Part shown: positions 8,280 to 39,046 of the stretch, piece after piece
Layout of the letters: each line of letters starts with the position of its first letter
Numbering within the stretch: position 1 is the stretch's first letter
From: a virus
Strand: one strand, 5' to 3'
Virus record (IMG/VR): IMGVR_UViG_3300037325_000381
Span: 1-43,843 of that record
Length of the DNA stretch: 43,843 bases
Notes under the pieces: generated by a model
Database searches by the model: none
The model's input: only the letters and a program-made list of their open reading frames with translations
Told to the model about the DNA's origin: nothing
Program-made: the position numbers and the translations under genes

Positions 8280-8305
8280 TTTGGTCTTTCGGTTGGTATG
8301 TGTTT

Positions 8306-8334
8306 ATTATAACACACCTAGGAATAAAAGTAAA
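8306..8334 (-). promoter_or_regulatory. Repeated extended -10 promoter, copy 6
   Basis: TTTACT at 8334-8329, 17-bp spacer, TGT plus TATAAT at 8311-8306. The -10 sits inside a perfect inverted repeat TGTGTT-N6-AACACA, and the leader is of the ATACCAACC type. The 8335-8447 stretch to its right holds a small GGGC/GCCC hairpin but no gene. Confidence 0.85.
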
Positions 8335-8447
8335 ATCTTACGGGCCTAACGCCCACATCTTAATTTCAGCGTGATCCTCAAAGCATTATGAACCGGTTGG
8401 CATCTACAAATAAAAACTAAGGTATCATATTTTTTATTATTTTATAC

Positions 8448-10022: not shown

Positions 10023-10027
10023 AAAAT

Positions 10028-10183
10028 TTACTCTTCGGTGAACTCAAACCAAGTGAAAATATCCATACTGGCTTGTTCCATGTCGCTAGCGAACTGTCGA
10101 GCTTCTTTTTCCGTTTCAAATTCTGCGATCAGCTTCTTTGGTTCCAAGAAAAGATCGTTGCGGCATTTGAAGACTAAAAACAT
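10028..10183 (-). CDS. Small acidic protein, 51 aa, local paralogue family
   Basis: Contains AEFETEKEARQFASDMEQ and ends WFEFTEE, matching the 51-aa protein at 8124-8279 along its length. The ATG at 10183 has AAGGAAAT upstream. First gene after promoter copy 8. Confidence 0.8.
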   Translation of the reverse strand: MFLVFKCRNDLFLEPKKLIAEFETEKEARQFASDMEQASMDIFTWFEFTEE

Positions 10184-10219
10184 TTTATTTCCTTGGTGGT
10201 CTTGTCGGGGTATGTGTTT

Positions 10220-10248
10220 ATTATACCACACCACAGAATAAAAGTAAA
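10220..10248 (-). promoter_or_regulatory. Repeated extended -10 promoter, copy 8
   Basis: TTTACT at 10248-10243, 17-bp spacer, TGG plus TATAAT at 10225-10220. A GGTAT/ATACC inverted repeat spans the -10 and the start site. It drives the operon 10183 to 9499. Confidence 0.85.
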
Positions 10249-10251
10249 ATT

Positions 10252-10722
10252 TTACACGCCTAGTTTGGCCACATGGACCCAGTTGATCCGGCACATAATC
10301 TGACGGTTGTAGAAGCGATCCAGGTTCTCAAGCACCCGCAGGTCCATCTGGGTCCTAGCTTCCGTGTACGACAACTCTCCCTTGCTTTTACAGAAGAACA
10401 AAATCTCACGCTTAAAATTATCGATCCCTAATAGCTCAATATCAGCAATTAGGCGTTCAGAACTCCCCCAATATTCACGCCAATCCGAGTGAACTAAGAT
10501 AGTGGTCTTTTTCTTATACTTCTGACCCTTACCGGTCTCACCCTTCTTCAGTTTACGATAGAGAGTTTTAACCGATGTTTTCTTGAAGTATATTAGCTTT
10601 CTCCCGATATAGGCTTTACCATCGGAAATTCGGCTTATTTTATAGATAAAACCAAGTGCAGTTTCGGGTATCAGTGAATCATTGAATGGTAGATCATTAT
10701 AGATCCAACCGGGCTCACTCAT
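10252..10722 (-). CDS. GIY-YIG domain endonuclease
   Basis: 156 aa. The N-terminal GFIYKISRISDGKAYIGRK (about 24-42) is the GIY...YIG motif, followed by a basic linker, YWGSS and a later E in YTEARTQMDLRVLE. Family members cut DNA and many are free-standing homing or nicking endonucleases in phages. It sits at the boundary of the nrd operon, as T4 seg genes sit between conserved genes. Target unknown. Confidence 0.8.
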   Translation of the reverse strand: MSEPGWIYNDLPFNDSLIPETALGFIYKISRISDGKAYIGRKLIYFKKTSVKTLYRKLKKGETGKGQKYKKKTTILVHSDWREYWGSSERLIADIELLGIDNFKREILFFCKSKGELSYTEARTQMDLRVLENLDRFYNRQIMCRINWVHVAKLGV

Positions 10723-12299: not shown

Positions 12300-13394
12300 T
12301 TACAAACTACACGATTCGCATATCTCTGATTCAGAGCTTAGCGCGTTTTCGCCAGTGTCTAGATTGACTCCATTACTGGTCTTACTATTAATATAATATC
12401 TGCTCTTAAGCCCGTATTTGACAATGTCGAGATAATCCTTAATCATTTCTGAAGATGTAATCTTTTGTTCGCCTAAAATTTTGACAAATAAATCAGCAGA
12501 GATACCCTGATCGGTCCATTTCTGAATGATGGCATAAACCTTAATCATATCAGTGGTAGAAATACCCCAGGCAGACTGATATTTATGCTTTAATTTTGAG
12601 CCTTCTGGAGCACACCAATAGTTAGGAACAGAAGAATCCGTGGTTTTCATAATGTTAAGCTCACGAATAGGATAGAGTCCGTTGGTGGTACCTGACCCGA
12701 GCGATGACGATTCAGCGGGCATGTGCGCGTTCAATACGGAATTTCTAATTCCACCATTTGCTACAATGGCAGAACGTAAGAATTCCCAATCACGCTTATT
12801 TTCAACAGTGACTAATTCATCTACACGCTTTTCATATGTATCAGTTGGTAACCAGCCATCTACCCATTTGGTTTTATGCATCCATGGCGCATTACCTAGT
12901 TCCTTACCTAGTCTTAATGAGGCATTGATTAAATGCCACATATGAGTTTCAGATAGTGTATGAATAAAATCTCGGCCATCCTGATCATCATACTTTTTAT
13001 TTTCTTTAGCGAGTAAATGTGCAAGACCAATCATACCAACACCAGCGGACAGTCTGGCCTTTGCAGTATGAGCTAATGCTTTGAATGCATAATCTGATTT
13101 ATGAATACAAACATCAATCATTTTTAGTGCATAATATGCTGCGTCAGCATATTGCTCATCTGACTCGATATTAGACACCACCACCGCACCCAATGAGCAT
13201 AAACCAATTTCGCCGTCACCCTCTTTATAGTCACTATATAGATCAGCCACAGACTCAAAACCAGCTGTAGGAATTGCAATTTCCGCACAATTATGAACTA
13301 GAATACCATTGGCAAAAAAGTTTTCAACTTTAGCCACTGTGATATCATATACCGGAATATCATTTAACAATTCAATAATTTTAATTTTAATCAT
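12300..13394 (-). CDS. nrdA: Split-intein C fragment fused to C-terminal half of NrdA
   Basis: 364 aa. Residues 1-35 are a C-intein ending in block F/G sequence (YDITVAKVENFFANGILVHN). C36 is the +1 extein residue. The remaining 329 aa are the C-terminal part of class Ia NrdA, beginning CAEIAIPT, with EIGLCSL (second active-site cysteine) and a terminal CESC redox pair served by glutaredoxin. Together with the N half the spliced protein would be about 751 aa, the size of E. coli or T4 NrdA. The start overlaps the endonuclease stop by ATGA. Trans-splicing is inferred from complete intein ends, not shown. Confidence 0.93.
   Translation of the reverse strand: MIKIKIIELLNDIPVYDITVAKVENFFANGILVHNCAEIAIPTAGFESVADLYSDYKEGDGEIGLCSLGAVVVSNIESDEQYADAAYYALKMIDVCIHKSDYAFKALAHTAKARLSAGVGMIGLAHLLAKENKKYDDQDGRDFIHTLSETHMWHLINASLRLGKELGNAPWMHKTKWVDGWLPTDTYEKRVDELVTVENKRDWEFLRSAIVANGGIRNSVLNAHMPAESSSLGSGTTNGLYPIRELNIMKTTDSSVPNYWCAPEGSKLKHKYQSAWGISTTDMIKVYAIIQKWTDQGISADLFVKILGEQKITSSEMIKDYLDIVKYGLKSRYYINSKTSNGVNLDTGENALSSESEICESCSL
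13290..13394 (-). other. C-terminal split intein (IntC, 35 aa)
   Basis: Short C-intein of the size typical of phage split inteins (gp41-1 class). Terminal HN followed by Cys has the asparagine for cyclisation and the +1 nucleophile. Confidence 0.9.
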
Positions 13395-14332
13395 TTTCGA
13401 CCTTTTCTATAATTTGTATTTTTTATTAAAAAATCATCTAACTCAGATATTAGTATAGATTTAGATAATATTCCGTTTGTTACCCATTTCTTACTCGATG
13501 TCATATGAGAAGCTGCCAGTTTTTGCACATCTGAACGATAATAAGGAATATATTTTATATCCTGCTTCCGCAATATATTATACTCTAGTATAAGTCCATT
13601 TATTGACCCAAAATTATTTTGTATCCAGACATAGGAAATCTTTTTAAACTCTACGAATTCGGTCTTTAGGGCAACTGAGAATGCAGTCATAATAAAGCGA
13701 TTTTCCACAATAGACCTAGAAACGCAATCCATCACACGCAATTTTCTTTCCGGTGTCATTTCCTTGTAATTTCTATTTGTAGAACCCACACCAAAACCAG
13801 CCGGTTGTTTTGTACCGGGTCGGCCTTTCGAATGATGGCACCATTCACCACTTAAAACCTTCGGGTGGTCAACTGGGATAGAACCGATAACTTCTCTAGT
13901 CACGCTATCGACCACGGGCATTTTCCCAGTTCTAGCCTTTGACAAGCTTTCAATACCAATCGCTTTTAGGCATTCCATCTCTACTAAAAAGGCTTCATCA
14001 ACTTCAGACATGTTACGCTGTCTTGGATGGGTCGACAAACCCTTTGAAAAGAAGAATTGTAATGAGGACCCCGCAGAATAACCATAATGGCTACCCTTCA
14101 AAATTTCATAAAGATAATAATGAGCTAGTAAATGTTCTCTGAATGTCAATAGAACTTTATTACTTTTGGCATTCGGATTACCCTCTAGATGACCACGGGG
14201 ACCTTTTCGCGCCCGTTCCTTAAACATAAAATCTGGGATAATATGATGACTTTCATAGTACACCCGATTTCTTTTGGTTCTGCATTCAGCTTTCGCATTT
14301 TCAATCATTTCCTTATACTTAATTTTATACAT
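13391..14332 (-). CDS. HNH-family homing endonuclease inside the fractured nrdA
   Basis: 313 aa. The nuclease core is ESHHIIP (H29, H30), then N58, then LTFREHLLAHYYLYE (H67, H71), the phage HNH pattern. The C-terminal end (KKWVTNGILSKSILIS... KGRK) resembles DNA-binding tails of phage HNH proteins. It sits exactly between the intein halves, so it would home into intein-less nrdA. A TATAAATA element at 14360-14367 may give it separate late expression. T4-like phages can carry HNH enzymes in nrdA, but not normally combined with a split intein. Confidence 0.88.
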   Translation of the reverse strand: MYKIKYKEMIENAKAECRTKRNRVYYESHHIIPDFMFKERARKGPRGHLEGNPNAKSNKVLLTFREHLLAHYYLYEILKGSHYGYSAGSSLQFFFSKGLSTHPRQRNMSEVDEAFLVEMECLKAIGIESLSKARTGKMPVVDSVTREVIGSIPVDHPKVLSGEWCHHSKGRPGTKQPAGFGVGSTNRNYKEMTPERKLRVMDCVSRSIVENRFIMTAFSVALKTEFVEFKKISYVWIQNNFGSINGLILEYNILRKQDIKYIPYYRSDVQKLAASHMTSSKKWVTNGILSKSILISELDDFLIKNTNYRKGRK

Positions 14333-14359
14333 GGTACTCCCAGATTAAATGTTATATTA

Positions 14360-14367
14360 TATTTATA
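14360..14367 (-). promoter_or_regulatory. T4-like late promoter motif TATAAATA before the homing endonuclease
   Basis: Minus-strand TATAAATA in the 39-nt gap between the IntN stop and the endonuclease ATG, which begins 27 nt downstream. Phage homing endonucleases are often under late promoters. Chance matches are expected elsewhere in such AT-rich DNA. Confidence 0.5.
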
Positions 14368-14371
14368 ACAT

Positions 14372-15961
14372 TTAAATTTCGGAGCATAGAGTATCAGTTT
14401 CATTCAAGTCTTTAGCTTTAACATACCCTCGATTTTTCGTGAAAATAAGATGATCAGCAGTGCACTTAACGATAGCCCCGGATTCATCTTCAATCTCATA
14501 AAGAACTGAGCTAGTACCGGTTTGAGCAGCAGCAGTCACAACATTCCATTCACTCTCATTGGACTCTATATTGTAACTCTTAACCTTTACACCAATCAAG
14601 CCACCCATCTCATAATGCTCAACAAAACTACGCATGTCAATGTTGGTTTGAACGCCATCAATTTCTATATCAAGTCTAGTGTCGCCAGTCACACAAAGAT
14701 TCGAACTATAAATTTTCTGTTTGAATGGAGTATGCTTATTTGCCGCGTCAGTCATAAACAAATACTGCACCCCGGTTTCATATGATTGAGTCAATACACC
14801 AATAGCAATTTCCCTGGCGTTTAGTTTAAATGGCGCGGTTTTTTCATAGACCGAGTACAATGCTTCGAAGTTGGCTTGATCGCTATCATATTGGGCTTCA
14901 TACAGTTCAGCATTACCGGCATAGGAAAACGGTGCATATTCCTCATTACGAGCAACCTTTCTCGCAAATGTCCGATTGGAACTAAACGAGTAATGACACC
15001 CATCAATTTTCTTTGTAGCTACAGACATTGGGTGGCGCAACTTTTGAATCACCTCTACCTCAGGATCATATGCGCTATAAAACATTGTAGAAGCACCACC
15101 GCGACCATTTTGTAAATTGGCGCCAATAGCACCTACCATTGCCCGAATATATGGCAACTTACCCTGATGTTGAATAACTCCACTACGAACTGCATCACCT
15201 AAAGATCGAGTTTTTAGGTGGGTTCCAATACCTGCACTTGCACAGGTCATCATATATGCGATGTGATCTCCGGCGGCAAGACTTGCAGCTGTATCATTTG
15301 TTGTATATACGCAGCAAGAGGCATAGCCATTTAGCTTGGTACCTAGATTGACATAGTTAGGTGTAGGTGCATTAATTCGACCCTGCGAAAAGTGATCATA
15401 CCATTTTTTGACATGAATCATCTTATCGACTGCCTCATTTTCTGCTAGAGCCATGGCCATTCGCATGTACACAAATTGTGCTGACTCATACTCTTTTTTT
15501 GCTATCTTATTTCTAAGCGCATACTTATAACGAATCTGGTTTAGTTGGTAATGGGGGTATTTTAGATCAAGCTTATGGTTAATGATCTTTTCGGCTTCAG
15601 AGTATTCATCATTGCTATAGTTTAACTCAGCCATAATGTCAGCATCAAATAGGGCCTTATGGACCTGCTTAATGGTTGGCTTACCGGCGGGGTAAAGTTC
15701 CCGGTCGATCAGGGCGGTATATAGGCGCCCGGCCATACGATTGTATTCCCAGGTTTTTTTGTTTAGACATGCTTCGATTAGCTTTTTCTGTAGCTCAAGA
15801 GAGTTGCATTCTACGGGGCAAACATTAACTGCCTCAATTACAACCGAGGTCCAGTCTACATATCCACCCAAGGTTTTTGAAGCCCATTCACCCCACATGT
15901 TAACTTTGGTCGGATTAAAGTCTTCTTTTGTACCGTTGCGCTTAATAATAACTTTGATCAT
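14372..15961 (-). CDS. nrdA: N-terminal half of NrdA fused to split-intein N fragment
   Basis: 529 aa. Residues 1-422 are NrdA: ATP-cone at the N terminus, an NAPTPNYVNLGTKL segment with active-site YASCCVY (C216/C217), and an end at YSSNL. C423 starts the intein (CVTGDTRL, block A), with block B at CTADHLIFT. The reading frame stops 107 residues into the intein. The join SNL/C falls exactly at the E. coli NLC439 position, so splicing restores the N-L-C-A-E active site. Without splicing neither half has a complete active site. Confidence 0.94.
   Translation of the reverse strand: MIKVIIKRNGTKEDFNPTKVNMWGEWASKTLGGYVDWTSVVIEAVNVCPVECNSLELQKKLIEACLNKKTWEYNRMAGRLYTALIDRELYPAGKPTIKQVHKALFDADIMAELNYSNDEYSEAEKIINHKLDLKYPHYQLNQIRYKYALRNKIAKKEYESAQFVYMRMAMALAENEAVDKMIHVKKWYDHFSQGRINAPTPNYVNLGTKLNGYASCCVYTTNDTAASLAAGDHIAYMMTCASAGIGTHLKTRSLGDAVRSGVIQHQGKLPYIRAMVGAIGANLQNGRGGASTMFYSAYDPEVEVIQKLRHPMSVATKKIDGCHYSFSSNRTFARKVARNEEYAPFSYAGNAELYEAQYDSDQANFEALYSVYEKTAPFKLNAREIAIGVLTQSYETGVQYLFMTDAANKHTPFKQKIYSSNLCVTGDTRLDIEIDGVQTNIDMRSFVEHYEMGGLIGVKVKSYNIESNESEWNVVTAAAQTGTSSVLYEIEDESGAIVKCTADHLIFTKNRGYVKAKDLNETDTLCSEI
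14375..14695 (-). other. N-terminal split intein (IntN, 107 aa)
   Basis: Starts with the C1 nucleophile, has TxxH (TADH) in block B, and ends near LNETDTLC where other split N-inteins end. No endonuclease domain is fused to it. Confidence 0.9.
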
Positions 15962-16377
15962 TTTTTCTTTCTTTTAGATTCTAGTTCGGACAGAACAATA
16001 TTTTCAGGTGTAGTTAAATCATCACTGATAATAAGAACAGTTTTTTCTGCTGTGGGGTGTTTTATTACAACCGGTTCTTGCAGGACTAATGGTTTAATAT
16101 CGTAAGACTTAATAAATTCTACTACGACATCACTGATTAAAAGTTTTGATTCGATGGATGTTAGCTTTTCGAAAACCAGATTCTGATTACTCGGTTCACC
16201 CAATAACACAAATACCACATTAGAGCCTAAGTCTCTTGCAATTCTATATACATTAACAAAAAATAGATCATTATTGATCCAATCCTCAAGTGTATCAACA
16301 TTGAGTTCTATTGCGGGTTTATCATTAAGGGTGGATACCCTTATCCAATTATTATTTTTATACTTTTCCATTAACAT
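15958..16377 (-). CDS. Hypothetical protein, 139 aa
   Basis: Function not recognised. A beta-rich N-terminal half (NNWIRVSTLNDKPAIELNV) is followed by a VVFVLLGEPSNQ strand-loop and a lysine-rich end. It overlaps nrdA by ATGA and the primase gene by 7 nt, so it is co-expressed with both. Confidence 0.8.
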   Translation of the reverse strand: MLMEKYKNNNWIRVSTLNDKPAIELNVDTLEDWINNDLFFVNVYRIARDLGSNVVFVLLGEPSNQNLVFEKLTSIESKLLISDVVVEFIKSYDIKPLVLQEPVVIKHPTAEKTVLIISDDLTTPENIVLSELESKRKKK

Positions 16378-17390
16378 CTTTTTTCCAGTGCGAGTTCTAG
16401 TAAAGCAGCTGCTCCACTTTTTTTGTTTTTGAATACGTATTGTTCGATTTCATCTGCGGTTATTCCGCTTATAACAATGTCATTTATATCTTTTTTCCAG
16501 GTATCTGGTAATAGACAGACCGTAAACCCAGAGGTTATTGCTTTTTTCAATTGATTACAAACCTGTAGATTTCTTCTAAAGTCATTATCCGGAATAATGA
16601 CAACTTTAGCCTTATGCGTTTTAAGAAATTCTGACTTGTAATCTGCTCGGCCAATTGCCAGACAATTATCAAGAAATAAACTATCAAGTTGACCCTCAAC
16701 GACCAGTAGGGTTTTATTTATATCGATACGGTTCTGACCGTATATGAATTCCTGATCCTTGTCGATCCTAAGATGAATGTACTTTGGCATTTCCTTACCG
16801 AATGCCCGGCAAGTAAAGCCCAATAACTTTTTGGTTGAATCATAACAGGGTATGATTAATCTAGGAGAATCAACCTTAAATGTTTTAAAGACCGGATCAA
16901 TTTTAGAAGCCCATTTAAAGAATTTCGGCACCAGAAATAAATCCTTATATCTAGCTTCTGGTATTTGCCTGTTAGAAATATATTTAAGGGCAGGATTACC
17001 AATAGGTAAGGATGCATATGAGATTAGGTCTGTAAAATGATTGTATGTTGGTTTATATTCTGATTTAACTGGAGTTAATAACGCCGGCTTGTACTCCTTT
17101 TTTGATTCCCATATACCTTCCTTAAAATTTTCCAGACAGTATTCACGATAAAGTGACGGATCAATATCTTGTAAGAACTTCGACAATGGTAAAGATTCAC
17201 TACAATTAAAGCATTTAAAGAATACGGATCCATTATGATTTAAAAAGTGACCACGGGTCTTTCTGGATTCTGAGCGTTCACAACTATGTGTAAAACTAGC
17301 AAGAACGCTGCCGGTATTTTTGTAAGTTATATTCCTTAGTCTGGAAGAAATAAAGCCTACATATTTTTTGTCAATAATTGATGATGTCAT
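16371..17390 (-). CDS. DNA primase (T4 gp61-like)
   Basis: 339 aa, close to the 342 of T4 gp61. An N-terminal zinc-binding region has C37 and C60-FN-C63 with histidines between (FTHSCERSESRKTRGHF). The TOPRIM core is LLVVEG (E232) followed by IIPDND (D268, D270). Primases synthesise RNA primers on the lagging strand with the replicative helicase. The ATG at 17390 is favoured over an upstream alternative start at 17423, because it directly follows the stop of the deaminase gene. Confidence 0.9.
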   Translation of the reverse strand: MTSSIIDKKYVGFISSRLRNITYKNTGSVLASFTHSCERSESRKTRGHFLNHNGSVFFKCFNCSESLPLSKFLQDIDPSLYREYCLENFKEGIWESKKEYKPALLTPVKSEYKPTYNHFTDLISYASLPIGNPALKYISNRQIPEARYKDLFLVPKFFKWASKIDPVFKTFKVDSPRLIIPCYDSTKKLLGFTCRAFGKEMPKYIHLRIDKDQEFIYGQNRIDINKTLLVVEGQLDSLFLDNCLAIGRADYKSEFLKTHKAKVVIIPDNDFRRNLQVCNQLKKAITSGFTVCLLPDTWKKDINDIVISGITADEIEQYVFKNKKSGAAALLELALEKRC

Positions 17391-17391
17391 T

Positions 17392-17790
17392 TTATTCGGT
17401 GTACACCACTCGTTTAATGCCAAAATGCTTGATAGCCTTCGCGCAGCCGCAACAAGGTGCAGCTAGACCAGAAACTGTAACCCCACCTACTATTTTGGTT
17501 CTTGCAATATAGAGAGTCGACTTACTCAGATTCTTATCTGATAGTCGCTTTCTAGCATTATGAATGGCAGCAATTTCAGCATGAATCTGAACTGCCTCAG
17601 GGTGTTTATTGAAAAAATGCATTAGTGTGCTGGTTTTGGTGGAGTTAGTGCCGAACGAGACAATATCTTTTTTCAGAACAATACATGCAGCTAGTCTGCC
17701 AGAACCTACTCGGGGAATATCCTCACACATAAGCATGAGTTGTTTCAAGATCTTGTTATCAAAAGTAGAAAGTATCATTGGTGAGATCAT
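17392..17790 (-). CDS. Cytidine/deoxycytidylate deaminase-like protein
   Basis: 132 aa. Zinc site H70-A-E72 (HAEIAAIHN) and P112-C113-CG-C116. It resembles the dCMP/tRNA-adenosine deaminase superfamily but lacks the long dCMP-specific N-terminal features of the protein at 33304-33741. The ATG starts 5 nt after an extended -10, so the message may be leaderless; an internal ATG at 17778 is an alternative. Substrate not certain. Confidence 0.82.
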   Translation of the reverse strand: MISPMILSTFDNKILKQLMLMCEDIPRVGSGRLAACIVLKKDIVSFGTNSTKTSTLMHFFNKHPEAVQIHAEIAAIHNARKRLSDKNLSKSTLYIARTKIVGGVTVSGLAAPCCGCAKAIKHFGIKRVVYTE

Positions 17791-17795
17791 AATCT

Positions 17796-17801
17796 ATTAT
17801 A
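17796..17801 (-). promoter_or_regulatory. Extended -10 promoter without the family -35
   Basis: Minus-strand TGGTATAAT with no TTTACT at the usual distance (ATTATA is there instead). It would start the roughly 7-kb deaminase, primase, nrdA, nrdB, glutaredoxin operon. Confidence 0.5.
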
Positions 17802-17933
17802 CCACTTTTTTGTGTGACTATAATAAACAAAAAGTGAAGTTTATTTCGAGGTAAAATTTAGTTGGATATAATGAACTATGTACCCCAGTCGCTGGTTGTT
17901 CGTAATGTAACTTGGTTTGATTAGCTGTAACTT
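17802..17933. other. Non-coding gap
   Basis: About 130 nt without a convincing gene between the deaminase and the terminator at 17934. No tRNA fold is recognised. AT-rich upstream DNA may help the promoter at 17796. Confidence 0.4.
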
Positions 17934-17957
17934 AAAAGGAGACCTAGGTCTCCTTTT
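17934..17957 (-). terminator. Palindromic terminator
   Basis: AAAAGGAGACC and GGTCTCCTTTT are separated by only TA, with extra T/A runs on both sides. It begins 2 nt past the stop codon of the 67-aa gene and could work in both directions. Confidence 0.8.
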
Positions 17958-17958
17958 T

Positions 17959-18162
17959 CTATTCTATACACTTGTGAATTTCCAGATTTTCTACAGTGAC
18001 AGTAGGCACACCGTTATAGCTTTTTTCAATCGATGCGTAGAGTTTGTCCTCGGCGGTTTCAATGCATTCGGCCAAAATAATTCTATACTGAGTACGTCTA
18101 TCGGTATACAGACCCGGACTAAATTCAATGCACGAAGTAAAGTTGGCAATAAAAAGATGCAT
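17959..18162 (-). CDS. Hypothetical protein, 67 aa
   Basis: Function unknown. A beta-alpha-beta-like small domain whose helix is AECIETAEDKLYASIE. AGGAAT upstream of the ATG. A single-gene unit: promoter copy 9 in front, terminator behind. Confidence 0.8.
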   Translation of the reverse strand: MHLFIANFTSCIEFSPGLYTDRRTQYRIILAECIETAEDKLYASIEKSYNGVPTVTVENLEIHKCIE

Positions 18163-18193
18163 TATTATTCCTGATTGGTTGGGGTATGTGTTT

Positions 18194-18222
18194 ATTATAC
18201 CACAACCTGAAATAAAAGTAAA
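18194..18222 (-). promoter_or_regulatory. Repeated extended -10 promoter, copy 9
   Basis: TTTACT at 18222-18217, 17-bp spacer, TGG plus TATAAT at 18199-18194, with the ATACC-type leader. Confidence 0.85.
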
Positions 18223-18225
18223 ATT

Positions 18226-18726
18226 TTACATGTCCACGATTTTTGTGCCTAGAGTCCCTAGCATGAGTTTGGTGTGAGCATGGCCCGCGATCATCCGCAC
18301 ATAGAAATTATTCTTGAGCTCAGGGTGGCGAACAACTTCAGGGTCGGTATCATCTGGTTTGGTTACAGTTTTTCCTTTAATTGCATGATATGCTTTAGCA
18401 TCTTCGAAACTGTGCACATAATTCTTTAGATCAATCTGCTTTTTCAAAAAGGAAAGAGATTTGCCACTAACCTCGGCATGAGCACGTTCCTGTTTTAGAT
18501 CATCGCTTACGATCTTACCTAATGCTTTTTTGCCGTGCTCAGAACCGTCCGATGCAATTGCAATTCGTTTACGGCCTTTACCACCATCAATATATAATGC
18601 CACTGCCGTAATTGTCCCACTATTCTTACTTACTTTCCAGAATGGAATTTCATTAACCATTGAGTCTGGTGTAGATAACTCTGGGCTTTTATTACCGCCC
18701 TGAGACACATATGCATCATGAATCAT
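18226..18726 (-). CDS. Unrecognised protein, 166 aa; main part of an interrupted gene
   Basis: Contains ALYIDGGKGRKRIAIASDG, ERAHAEVSGKSLSFLKK and FYVRMIAGHAHTKLMLGT segments; I do not recognise the family. The ATG at 18726 has no ribosome-binding site at a suitable distance. The frame continues upstream through KEKDAVVIHK to a TAA stop, and before that to a 20-codon start with a capsid-targeting-like sequence. The intact ancestor was probably one protein of about 197 aa packed in the head. The body may now be made by readthrough, re-initiation or not at all. Confidence 0.65.
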   Translation of the reverse strand: MIHDAYVSQGGNKSPELSTPDSMVNEIPFWKVSKNSGTITAVALYIDGGKGRKRIAIASDGSEHGKKALGKIVSDDLKQERAHAEVSGKSLSFLKKQIDLKNYVHSFEDAKAYHAIKGKTVTKPDDTDPEVVRHPELKNNFYVRMIAGHAHTKLMLGTLGTKIVDM

Positions 18727-18756
18727 TTTATGAATTACAACAGCATCCTTTTCTTT

Positions 18757-18819
18757 TTAATCCTTGTTGTTAGGCAGATAGTTATAATAAGATTCTGAAA
18801 GAAAGTCTCTGAAGCTCAT
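18757..18819 (-). pseudogene. 20-codon start of the interrupted gene, capsid-targeting-like
   Basis: Encodes MSFRDFLSESYYNYLPNNKD, then TAA, in the same frame as the protein at 18226-18726. The ATG overlaps the stop of the esterase gene (ATGA), a typical coupled start, which argues this is the true gene start. The N terminus resembles the T4 capsid-targeting sequence (MKTYQEFIAE). Confidence 0.6.
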
Positions 18820-19328
18820 AGTTGTGCCTGCTCGTAATGGTATGCTGTAATAAGTTTATTTATATTGGTATCAGTCATACGATGGCCGCCAGAACTGATA
18901 ATAAGATTATAATCCTTATAAAGATTTAAAGCCAAACCAGGGTGCACCGTGGTATCATCGGTACAAACACAAACAGTTCGATTAGTCGGAGCTAGTTCTT
19001 TGAGTTTGTCATATTGAATGGTAACGGTTGGATCGATTCCGTATTTGAGTAACGAGTTAGCAGGATCGGTACTTGGGTTATAAAGAAATAAAGAACAAGG
19101 GATCATTCCAGCAAGTTTTTCGGCGTACCATCCACCGAGACTTGAAGCGAAAATGTTAATGTGATCACTGCTTGGGCATGTATCCATAAGATAGTATGCC
19201 ATTGAAGCAAGTGATCCAATAGGGTCACTTGACTTATATGTTAATGCAGAAATTTCAATATGATCCTGATATTGCTTCAATGTAGATGAGTCAGAACCAG
19301 AACCGAATCCTGGGATATAGAAGTTCAT
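18816..19328 (-). CDS. Alpha/beta hydrolase (YqiA-like esterase)
   Basis: 170 aa. Starts MNFYIPGFGSG; nucleophile S63 in FASSLGGWYAEKLA; likely acid D in CTDDTTVHPG; histidine in SSGGHRMT. Small esterases of the YqiA/UPF0227 group have this size and order. Substrate unknown. One of two hydrolases in this operon. Linked by ATGA to the 72-aa gene. Confidence 0.85.
   Translation of the reverse strand: MNFYIPGFGSGSDSSTLKQYQDHIEISALTYKSSDPIGSLASMAYYLMDTCPSSDHINIFASSLGGWYAEKLAGMIPCSLFLYNPSTDPANSLLKYGIDPTVTIQYDKLKELAPTNRTVCVCTDDTTVHPGLALNLYKDYNLIISSGGHRMTDTNINKLITAYHYEQAQL
18857..18864 (-). promoter_or_regulatory. T4-like late promoter motif TATAAATA before the interrupted head-protein gene
   Basis: Minus-strand TATAAATA inside the end of the esterase gene, about 38 nt before the ATG at 18819. 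It is coding, so it could be coincidental. Its position matches that at 36124. Confidence 0.35.
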
Positions 19329-19543
19329 TCACCGGTGCCGTAGTAAGCAATAAGAACCTTCATGGCGTTTAGATATTTTTTGTTGTTAGCATAATCCTCG
19401 GGGTGCATATAGGAAGCTTCCTTCTCATGGCCCTTCATATCTTTTTTAAGAAGTGCACGACTAGCTTTGAGAGTTTCAAGAGTAATTAAATCAGCAACTT
19501 TATATGGAATTTGAAGGCCCGGGATTTTAAATTCAGATGTCAT
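19325..19543 (-). CDS. Hypothetical protein, 72 aa
   Basis: Function unknown. Helical, with a conserved-looking IPGLQIPYKVADL start. First gene after promoter copy 10 and overlaps the esterase by ATGA. Confidence 0.75.
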   Translation of the reverse strand: MTSEFKIPGLQIPYKVADLITLETLKASRALLKKDMKGHEKEASYMHPEDYANNKKYLNAMKVLIAYYGTGE

Positions 19544-32179: not shown

Positions 32180-32198
32180 TTTTGGATGGTATGTGTTT

Positions 32199-32227
32199 AT
32201 TATAACACACACCAGAATAAAAGTAAA
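32199..32227 (-). promoter_or_regulatory. Repeated extended -10 promoter, copy 14
   Basis: TTTACT at 32227-32222, 17-bp spacer, TGT plus TATAAT at 32204-32199. Within a TGTGTT-N6-AACACA palindrome. It drives the RNA ligase operon. Confidence 0.85.
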
Positions 32228-32233
32228 ATGCTG

Positions 32234-37122: not shown

Positions 37123-37149
37123 TTTATGATCCTTGGTTGGTATGTGTTT

Positions 37150-37178
37150 ATTATAACACGGGCAGGAATAAAAGTAAA
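37150..37178 (-). promoter_or_regulatory. Repeated extended -10 promoter, copy 16
   Basis: TTTACT at 37178-37173, 17-bp spacer, TGT plus TATAAT at 37155-37150, with the ATACCAACCAAGGA leader. Confidence 0.85.
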
Positions 37179-37180
37179 AC

Positions 37181-38983: not shown

Positions 38984-39015
38984 CGTGATTTTTCCTAGTG
39001 GGATGGTATGTGTTT

Positions 39016-39044
39016 ATTATACCATACCCTAGAATAAAAGTAAA
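39016..39044 (-). promoter_or_regulatory. Repeated extended -10 promoter, copy 18
   Basis: TTTACT at 39044-39039, 17-bp spacer, TGG plus TATAAT at 39021-39016. Its spacer and -10 match copy 19 almost base for base. Confidence 0.85.
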
Positions 39045-39046
39045 AC

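Follow-up and report, generated by a model that had tools for sequence, protein, structure and literature searches.

A probably recent in-frame stop codon in a putative GNAT-like internal head protein gene of a T4-like phage, and its hydrolase neighbour

Does a stop codon inside an otherwise open phage frame mark a recently broken allele, an error in the sequence, or a site of controlled readthrough? This question is raised by a reverse-strand frame at 18226..18819 of the IMG/VR virus record IMGVR_UViG_3300037325_000381, whose 43,843 nucleotides were analysed as a whole and are called the window here. From ATG 18819, the frame reads 20 sense codons, including the ATG, and then meets a TAA at codon 21 (18757..18759, read as 18759-18757 on the reverse strand). 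Past this stop, 176 sense codons (18229..18756) lead to a terminal TAA at 18228-18226. The interruption described in the original prediction, with its coordinates and codon counts, is therefore correct. The start codon had also been called coupled, and this label is right because ATG 18819 shares the bases ATGA with the TGA of the upstream gene (18816-19328, reverse strand). The next in-frame ATG (18726) had been said to lack a ribosome-binding site; the nearest purine-rich stretch lies ~19 nt upstream of it, beyond the normal spacing, and this statement holds as well.

Close copies of the gene were found in two IMG/VR contigs, L004 (128.6 kb) and L005 (7.1 kb), and both carry an unbroken gene of 197 codons with lysine at codon 21. 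A degenerate DNA pattern laid across the stop site matched these two contigs only, in a search that may miss the records closest to the window. Nineteen loci, among them the L004 and L005 contigs and Tenacibaculum phage pT24, came from an alignment-based scan; pT24, Vibrio phage 1.081.O and Phage C48C1 were added as database phages. In total, 22 loci were inspected for stops, 20 of them distant. No stop was observed inside the match in any of the 20 distant loci, which are not all independent (for example, L003 and L026 are copies of one phage, and L015, L016, and L027 look alike). Megablast of 18100-19400 against phages gave no match, and a scan of genome contigs gave 40 pattern matches, none of them a relative. 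The TAA of the window differs from the lysine codon of the relatives by two bases; therefore, either a silent change preceded the nonsense change or events were more complex. Among the copies found, the stop appears to be private to the window, and recent.

Purifying selection is still visible in the frame past the stop. Between the window and L004, 41 codons differ silently and 7 otherwise, with the stop counted among the latter; the corresponding numbers for L005 are 49 and 11. Over codons 22-197, which comprise 114 synonymous and 414 nonsynonymous sites (528 in total), the pairwise dN/dS values of the window against its two close relatives are 0.043 and 0.060. In the same codons, 30 synonymous and 3 nonsynonymous changes are private to the window, although some of them may have arisen on the other branch, since only three sequences were compared, without a root. 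The predominance of synonymous private changes indicates that the frame was selected until recently, and the frame itself appears to have been functional until recently or to be functional still. With the stop present in one of the three close copies and the remaining frame under selection, the recent decay that the original prediction offered as one explanation is supported. However, a base error at codon 21 would predict the same signature of selection just as well.

We regard a nonsense mutation at codon 21, recent and private to the window, as the likeliest origin of the stop, and a base error, offered as a sequencing error in the original prediction, as the second. In the latter case, the TAA would be a base-calling, assembly, or minority-read artefact, and the gene would be intact in the phage. 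The stop site does lie inside an A-rich run, both close relatives are open at codon 21, and selection acts on the frame past the stop, all of which speak for an artefact. However, the contig is otherwise clean. When ORFs of at least 80 codons in the first 40 kb of the relative's contig were compared with the window, 38 had a match; the alignments of 3 of these 38 hold a stop, and only in the frame at 18226-18819 does the stop lie within a true gene. The stop seen in a second window gene (30645-29875, aligned with an ORF of the close relative G001) is located two codons before an ATG that bears a ribosome-binding site, outside the gene, and the stop in the match of g12260 belongs to a wrong-frame overlap with 44% identity. 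The sole gene split over frames is an intein-split ribonucleotide reductase. Since no other true gene among the 38 matches contains a stop, the contig is not generally error-ridden, and the stop at codon 21 is a single event that reflects neither general decay nor poor sequence. We therefore consider an artefact rather unlikely.

If the nonsense mutation is real, translation could restart within the gene, at ATG 18726 or a near-cognate codon, and yield a leaderless protein. The stop is only 30 nt ahead of ATG 18726, and translational restart across such distances is known in general. However, a ribosome-binding site is absent at the normal distance from this ATG, and a protein starting at Met32 would lose the leader, the strand of residues 11-14, and much of the helix of residues 19-38 of the structural model. 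Restart is thus very unlikely, and we give even less credit to low-level readthrough of the stop as a controlled switch; readthrough that yields a small share of full-length protein had been one of the options in the original prediction. An open and selected frame past the stop would suit such a switch. However, the stop is replaced by a sense codon in both close relatives (2/2), where a programmed stop should be conserved, and the 20 distant loci are free of stops inside the match. A stimulating RNA structure, the other mark of programmed readthrough, was not observed near the stop: the fold has a z value of +0.67, and 153 of 200 shuffles equal or surpass it, as calculated for simple folds with no pseudoknots. 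TAA is moreover the common terminator, ending 21 of the 30 readable window genes, and no tRNA gene was found in the window, which also counts against readthrough. The low ratings of readthrough and restart follow from this TAA usage, the RNA fold, the lack of a tRNA gene and of a ribosome-binding site, and the loss of part of the protein fold. Decoding of TAA as a sense codon by the phage, for which nothing speaks beyond the codon-21 site itself, was rejected as practically negligible on account of the same stop usage and the absence of other in-frame stops in the true genes compared.

The product that a recent nonsense mutation would have abolished can be approached from its N-terminus. According to the available part of PMC9026906, the T4 prohead protease cuts after L/I-x-E, and the N-terminal 10 residues of IPIII are enough for entry into the head; the available part of PMC7411985 gives the length of the capsid-targeting sequence (CTS) as ~10-20 residues. 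The window frame begins with MSFRDFLSE (18793..18819, reverse strand), a T4-capsid-targeting-like leader that agrees with this length and has a predicted L-x-E prohead-protease site at its end (PMC9026906, available part). At the aligned Glu, [LI]xE is observed in 18 of the 19 rows of alignment A2, including L018, where it is internal, and L012 has F-x-E. In L018, the I-x-E occupies residues 176-178 and follows an ART-PolyVal domain (match at residues 32-166). Because the aligned Glu is invariant and is internal in L018, it may be structural and not a cleavage site; or the protease may separate the two domains of L018 at I-x-E.

The pattern SF[RK].[FYW]L.E was composed after the sequences had been seen, and in 60 kb of the relative's contig it opens 3 of 137 mechanical ORFs and is absent from the 28,077 other positions; two of the three leaders had already been caught by an earlier pattern with a different design. 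A loose leader pattern was dropped because it matched 13 of 71 window ORFs and did not discriminate. Two late proteins of the T4-like relative carry the same leader in these 60 kb. At L033:15347-15877, a protein matching phrog_755 (RNA ligase) has the same head-targeting-like leader and is encoded between the major head protein and tail tube genes. A 408-residue protein at L033:18648-19874, which matches phrog_455 (function unknown), begins with a leader of this type.

An S77 prohead protease is encoded in three of the four relatives' records, including that of G001 (80350-80799), and the fourth record is a 7 kb fragment; this evidence comes from the relatives, the window being a 43.8 kb fragment. 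The close relative also encodes a T4-type portal, scaffold, major head protein, and sheath. The label of head protein in the original prediction is therefore plausible: it gains indirect support from the leader and from the protease of the relative, but it was not visible from the sequence alone. As in T4 IPI-III and Alt, a short N-terminal leader ends in L/I-x-E, a folded protein is predicted past the putative cut, and the close relative of the window's phage has an S77 prohead protease. Unlike them, the window protein is GNAT-like, and its gene adjoins a hydrolase gene and is located near the dCMP deaminase, primase, and ribonucleotide reductase genes, not among head genes.

The fold was predicted with AlphaFold2 for the L004 copy, using a 17-row alignment (A3). 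The mean pLDDT of the model is 88, residues 1-8 are below 50, and the modelled GNAT-like fold starts just past the predicted cut. Foldseek found six solved chains at E <= 0.001, all named acetyltransferases, with 1y9k as the best match (E 9e-5, TM 0.33/0.40). VIA-align placed 7kd7 first, with a Z value of 9.9 and 144 aligned residues at 3.3 Å. These matches are middling, with TM (query) of 0.28-0.49 and Z of 8.6-9.9 among the matches listed. The order of helices and strands in the model and its fold matches resemble those of the GNAT acetyltransferases, whose usual acetyl-CoA loop has the motif R/Q-x-x-G-x-G/A. However, this motif is present in none of the 19 rows, and a D-G-S/T-x-x-G-K-like loop is conserved in this family instead. 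We call the protein GNAT-like on the basis of the model and claim no enzyme activity for it. The window's piece had no match in PHROGs at E up to 0.001, and the L004 copy had none in Pfam at E up to 0.1. With the 19 rows as queries, four PHROGs families matched one row each at E 0.03-0.09 and were regarded as stray. A sequence search of solved structures with A2 gave only 2e5h (E 0.12), which was taken as chance.

The gene upstream of the interrupted frame (18816..19328, reverse strand) is intact and encodes a UPF0227-type alpha/beta hydrolase, which scores just above the family cut-off of PF05728 (21.4 bits versus 21). A UPF0227-type hydrolase ORF adjoins the gene in all of the 20 other loci, either upstream or downstream and overlapping or within ~80 nt, in a search at E up to 0.01 whose weakest best match was ~1e-6 (L025). 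Two of the hydrolase queries were drawn from the loci themselves (L001 and L003), and both match PF05728 independently. We read the hydrolase and GNAT-like genes as a probable functional pair. A BFVD match, A0A8S5PWR1 (406 residues, TM 0.76 over the model), is named an esterase and looks like a hydrolase/GNAT-like fusion, as judged by its name and length only. Literature searches on an acetyltransferase as an internal head protein, on UPF0227 in phages, and on readthrough in phages returned nothing on this family among the papers listed, which is not proof of absence in print.

Polyvalent proteins are proposed in the available part of PMC5512222 to be injected along with the DNA, in agreement with the reading of the GNAT-like protein as a head protein. 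A likeness to polyvalent proteins is seen in L018, where an ART-PolyVal domain precedes the GNAT-like one in a single chain (L018:1976-3079, with I-x-E at the junction). However, this two-domain form is found only in L018; the window protein, as represented by the L004 copy, is single-domain, whereas a polyvalent protein combines domains of several activities in one chain. Tentatively, and as a suggestion that may well prove wrong, the hydrolase and the leader-bearing GNAT-like protein may form a head-packaged, injected effector module of T4-like and other large phages, whose GNAT-like half has once been joined to an ADP-ribosyltransferase domain. The window's phage would then have just lost the packaged half and kept the hydrolase.

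For the interrupted gene itself, we favour, with some reserve, an injected GNAT-like head protein of a T4-like phage whose window allele was nulled by a recent private nonsense mutation. The gene would encode a ~22 kDa protein of 197 residues, the translation of which is probably coupled to that of the hydrolase gene. Its leader would probably target the protein to the prohead core, and an S77 prohead protease would cut after MSFRDFLSE. The cut protein would stay inside the head and be ejected with the DNA, in the manner of T4 IPI-III and Alt. In the window's phage, the mutation at codon 21 would stop translation shortly past the leader; the allele would therefore be effectively null, and the protein is probably dispensable. 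For T4, the available part of PMC9026906 reports that an IPIII mutant still has a burst of ~40% of normal and that Alt is non-essential. Taken by itself, the broken allele is nothing unusual, and the conserved gene pair is more interesting than the stop. If real, however, the stop is a natural knock-out, which suggests that a packaged protein can be done without in nature. Of wider use is a testable candidate family, nameless in the libraries searched, that combines a head-targeting-like leader, a predicted GNAT-like fold, and a neighbouring hydrolase gene.

Several other features of the window were observed. The gene for the ribonucleotide reductase large subunit (12300-15961, reverse strand) is split into an N-part with an N-intein (14372-15961) and a C-part with a C-intein (12300-13394), and a free ORF between them (13391-14332) has a weak AHH/HNH match (E 0.011). 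In L004, the enzyme is encoded by one ORF of 751 codons. The arrangement in the window resembles a split intein accompanied by a free-standing nuclease gene, a layout known as a "fractured gene". An element of ~50 bases is present at 18175-18229 and at about ten other places, such as 8291-8341, 32182-32229, 37133-37179, and 38998-39045. The copy after the interrupted gene contains TATAAT, and the element is possibly a shared promoter. The 230 bases located 3' of the gene in L004 have an 88% match at 10027-10256 of the window, ~8 kb away, which appears to be a moved or second copy. Identity to L004 drops from ~98% in both flanks to 79-89% in the region 16103-19329, which is apparently a mosaic segment.
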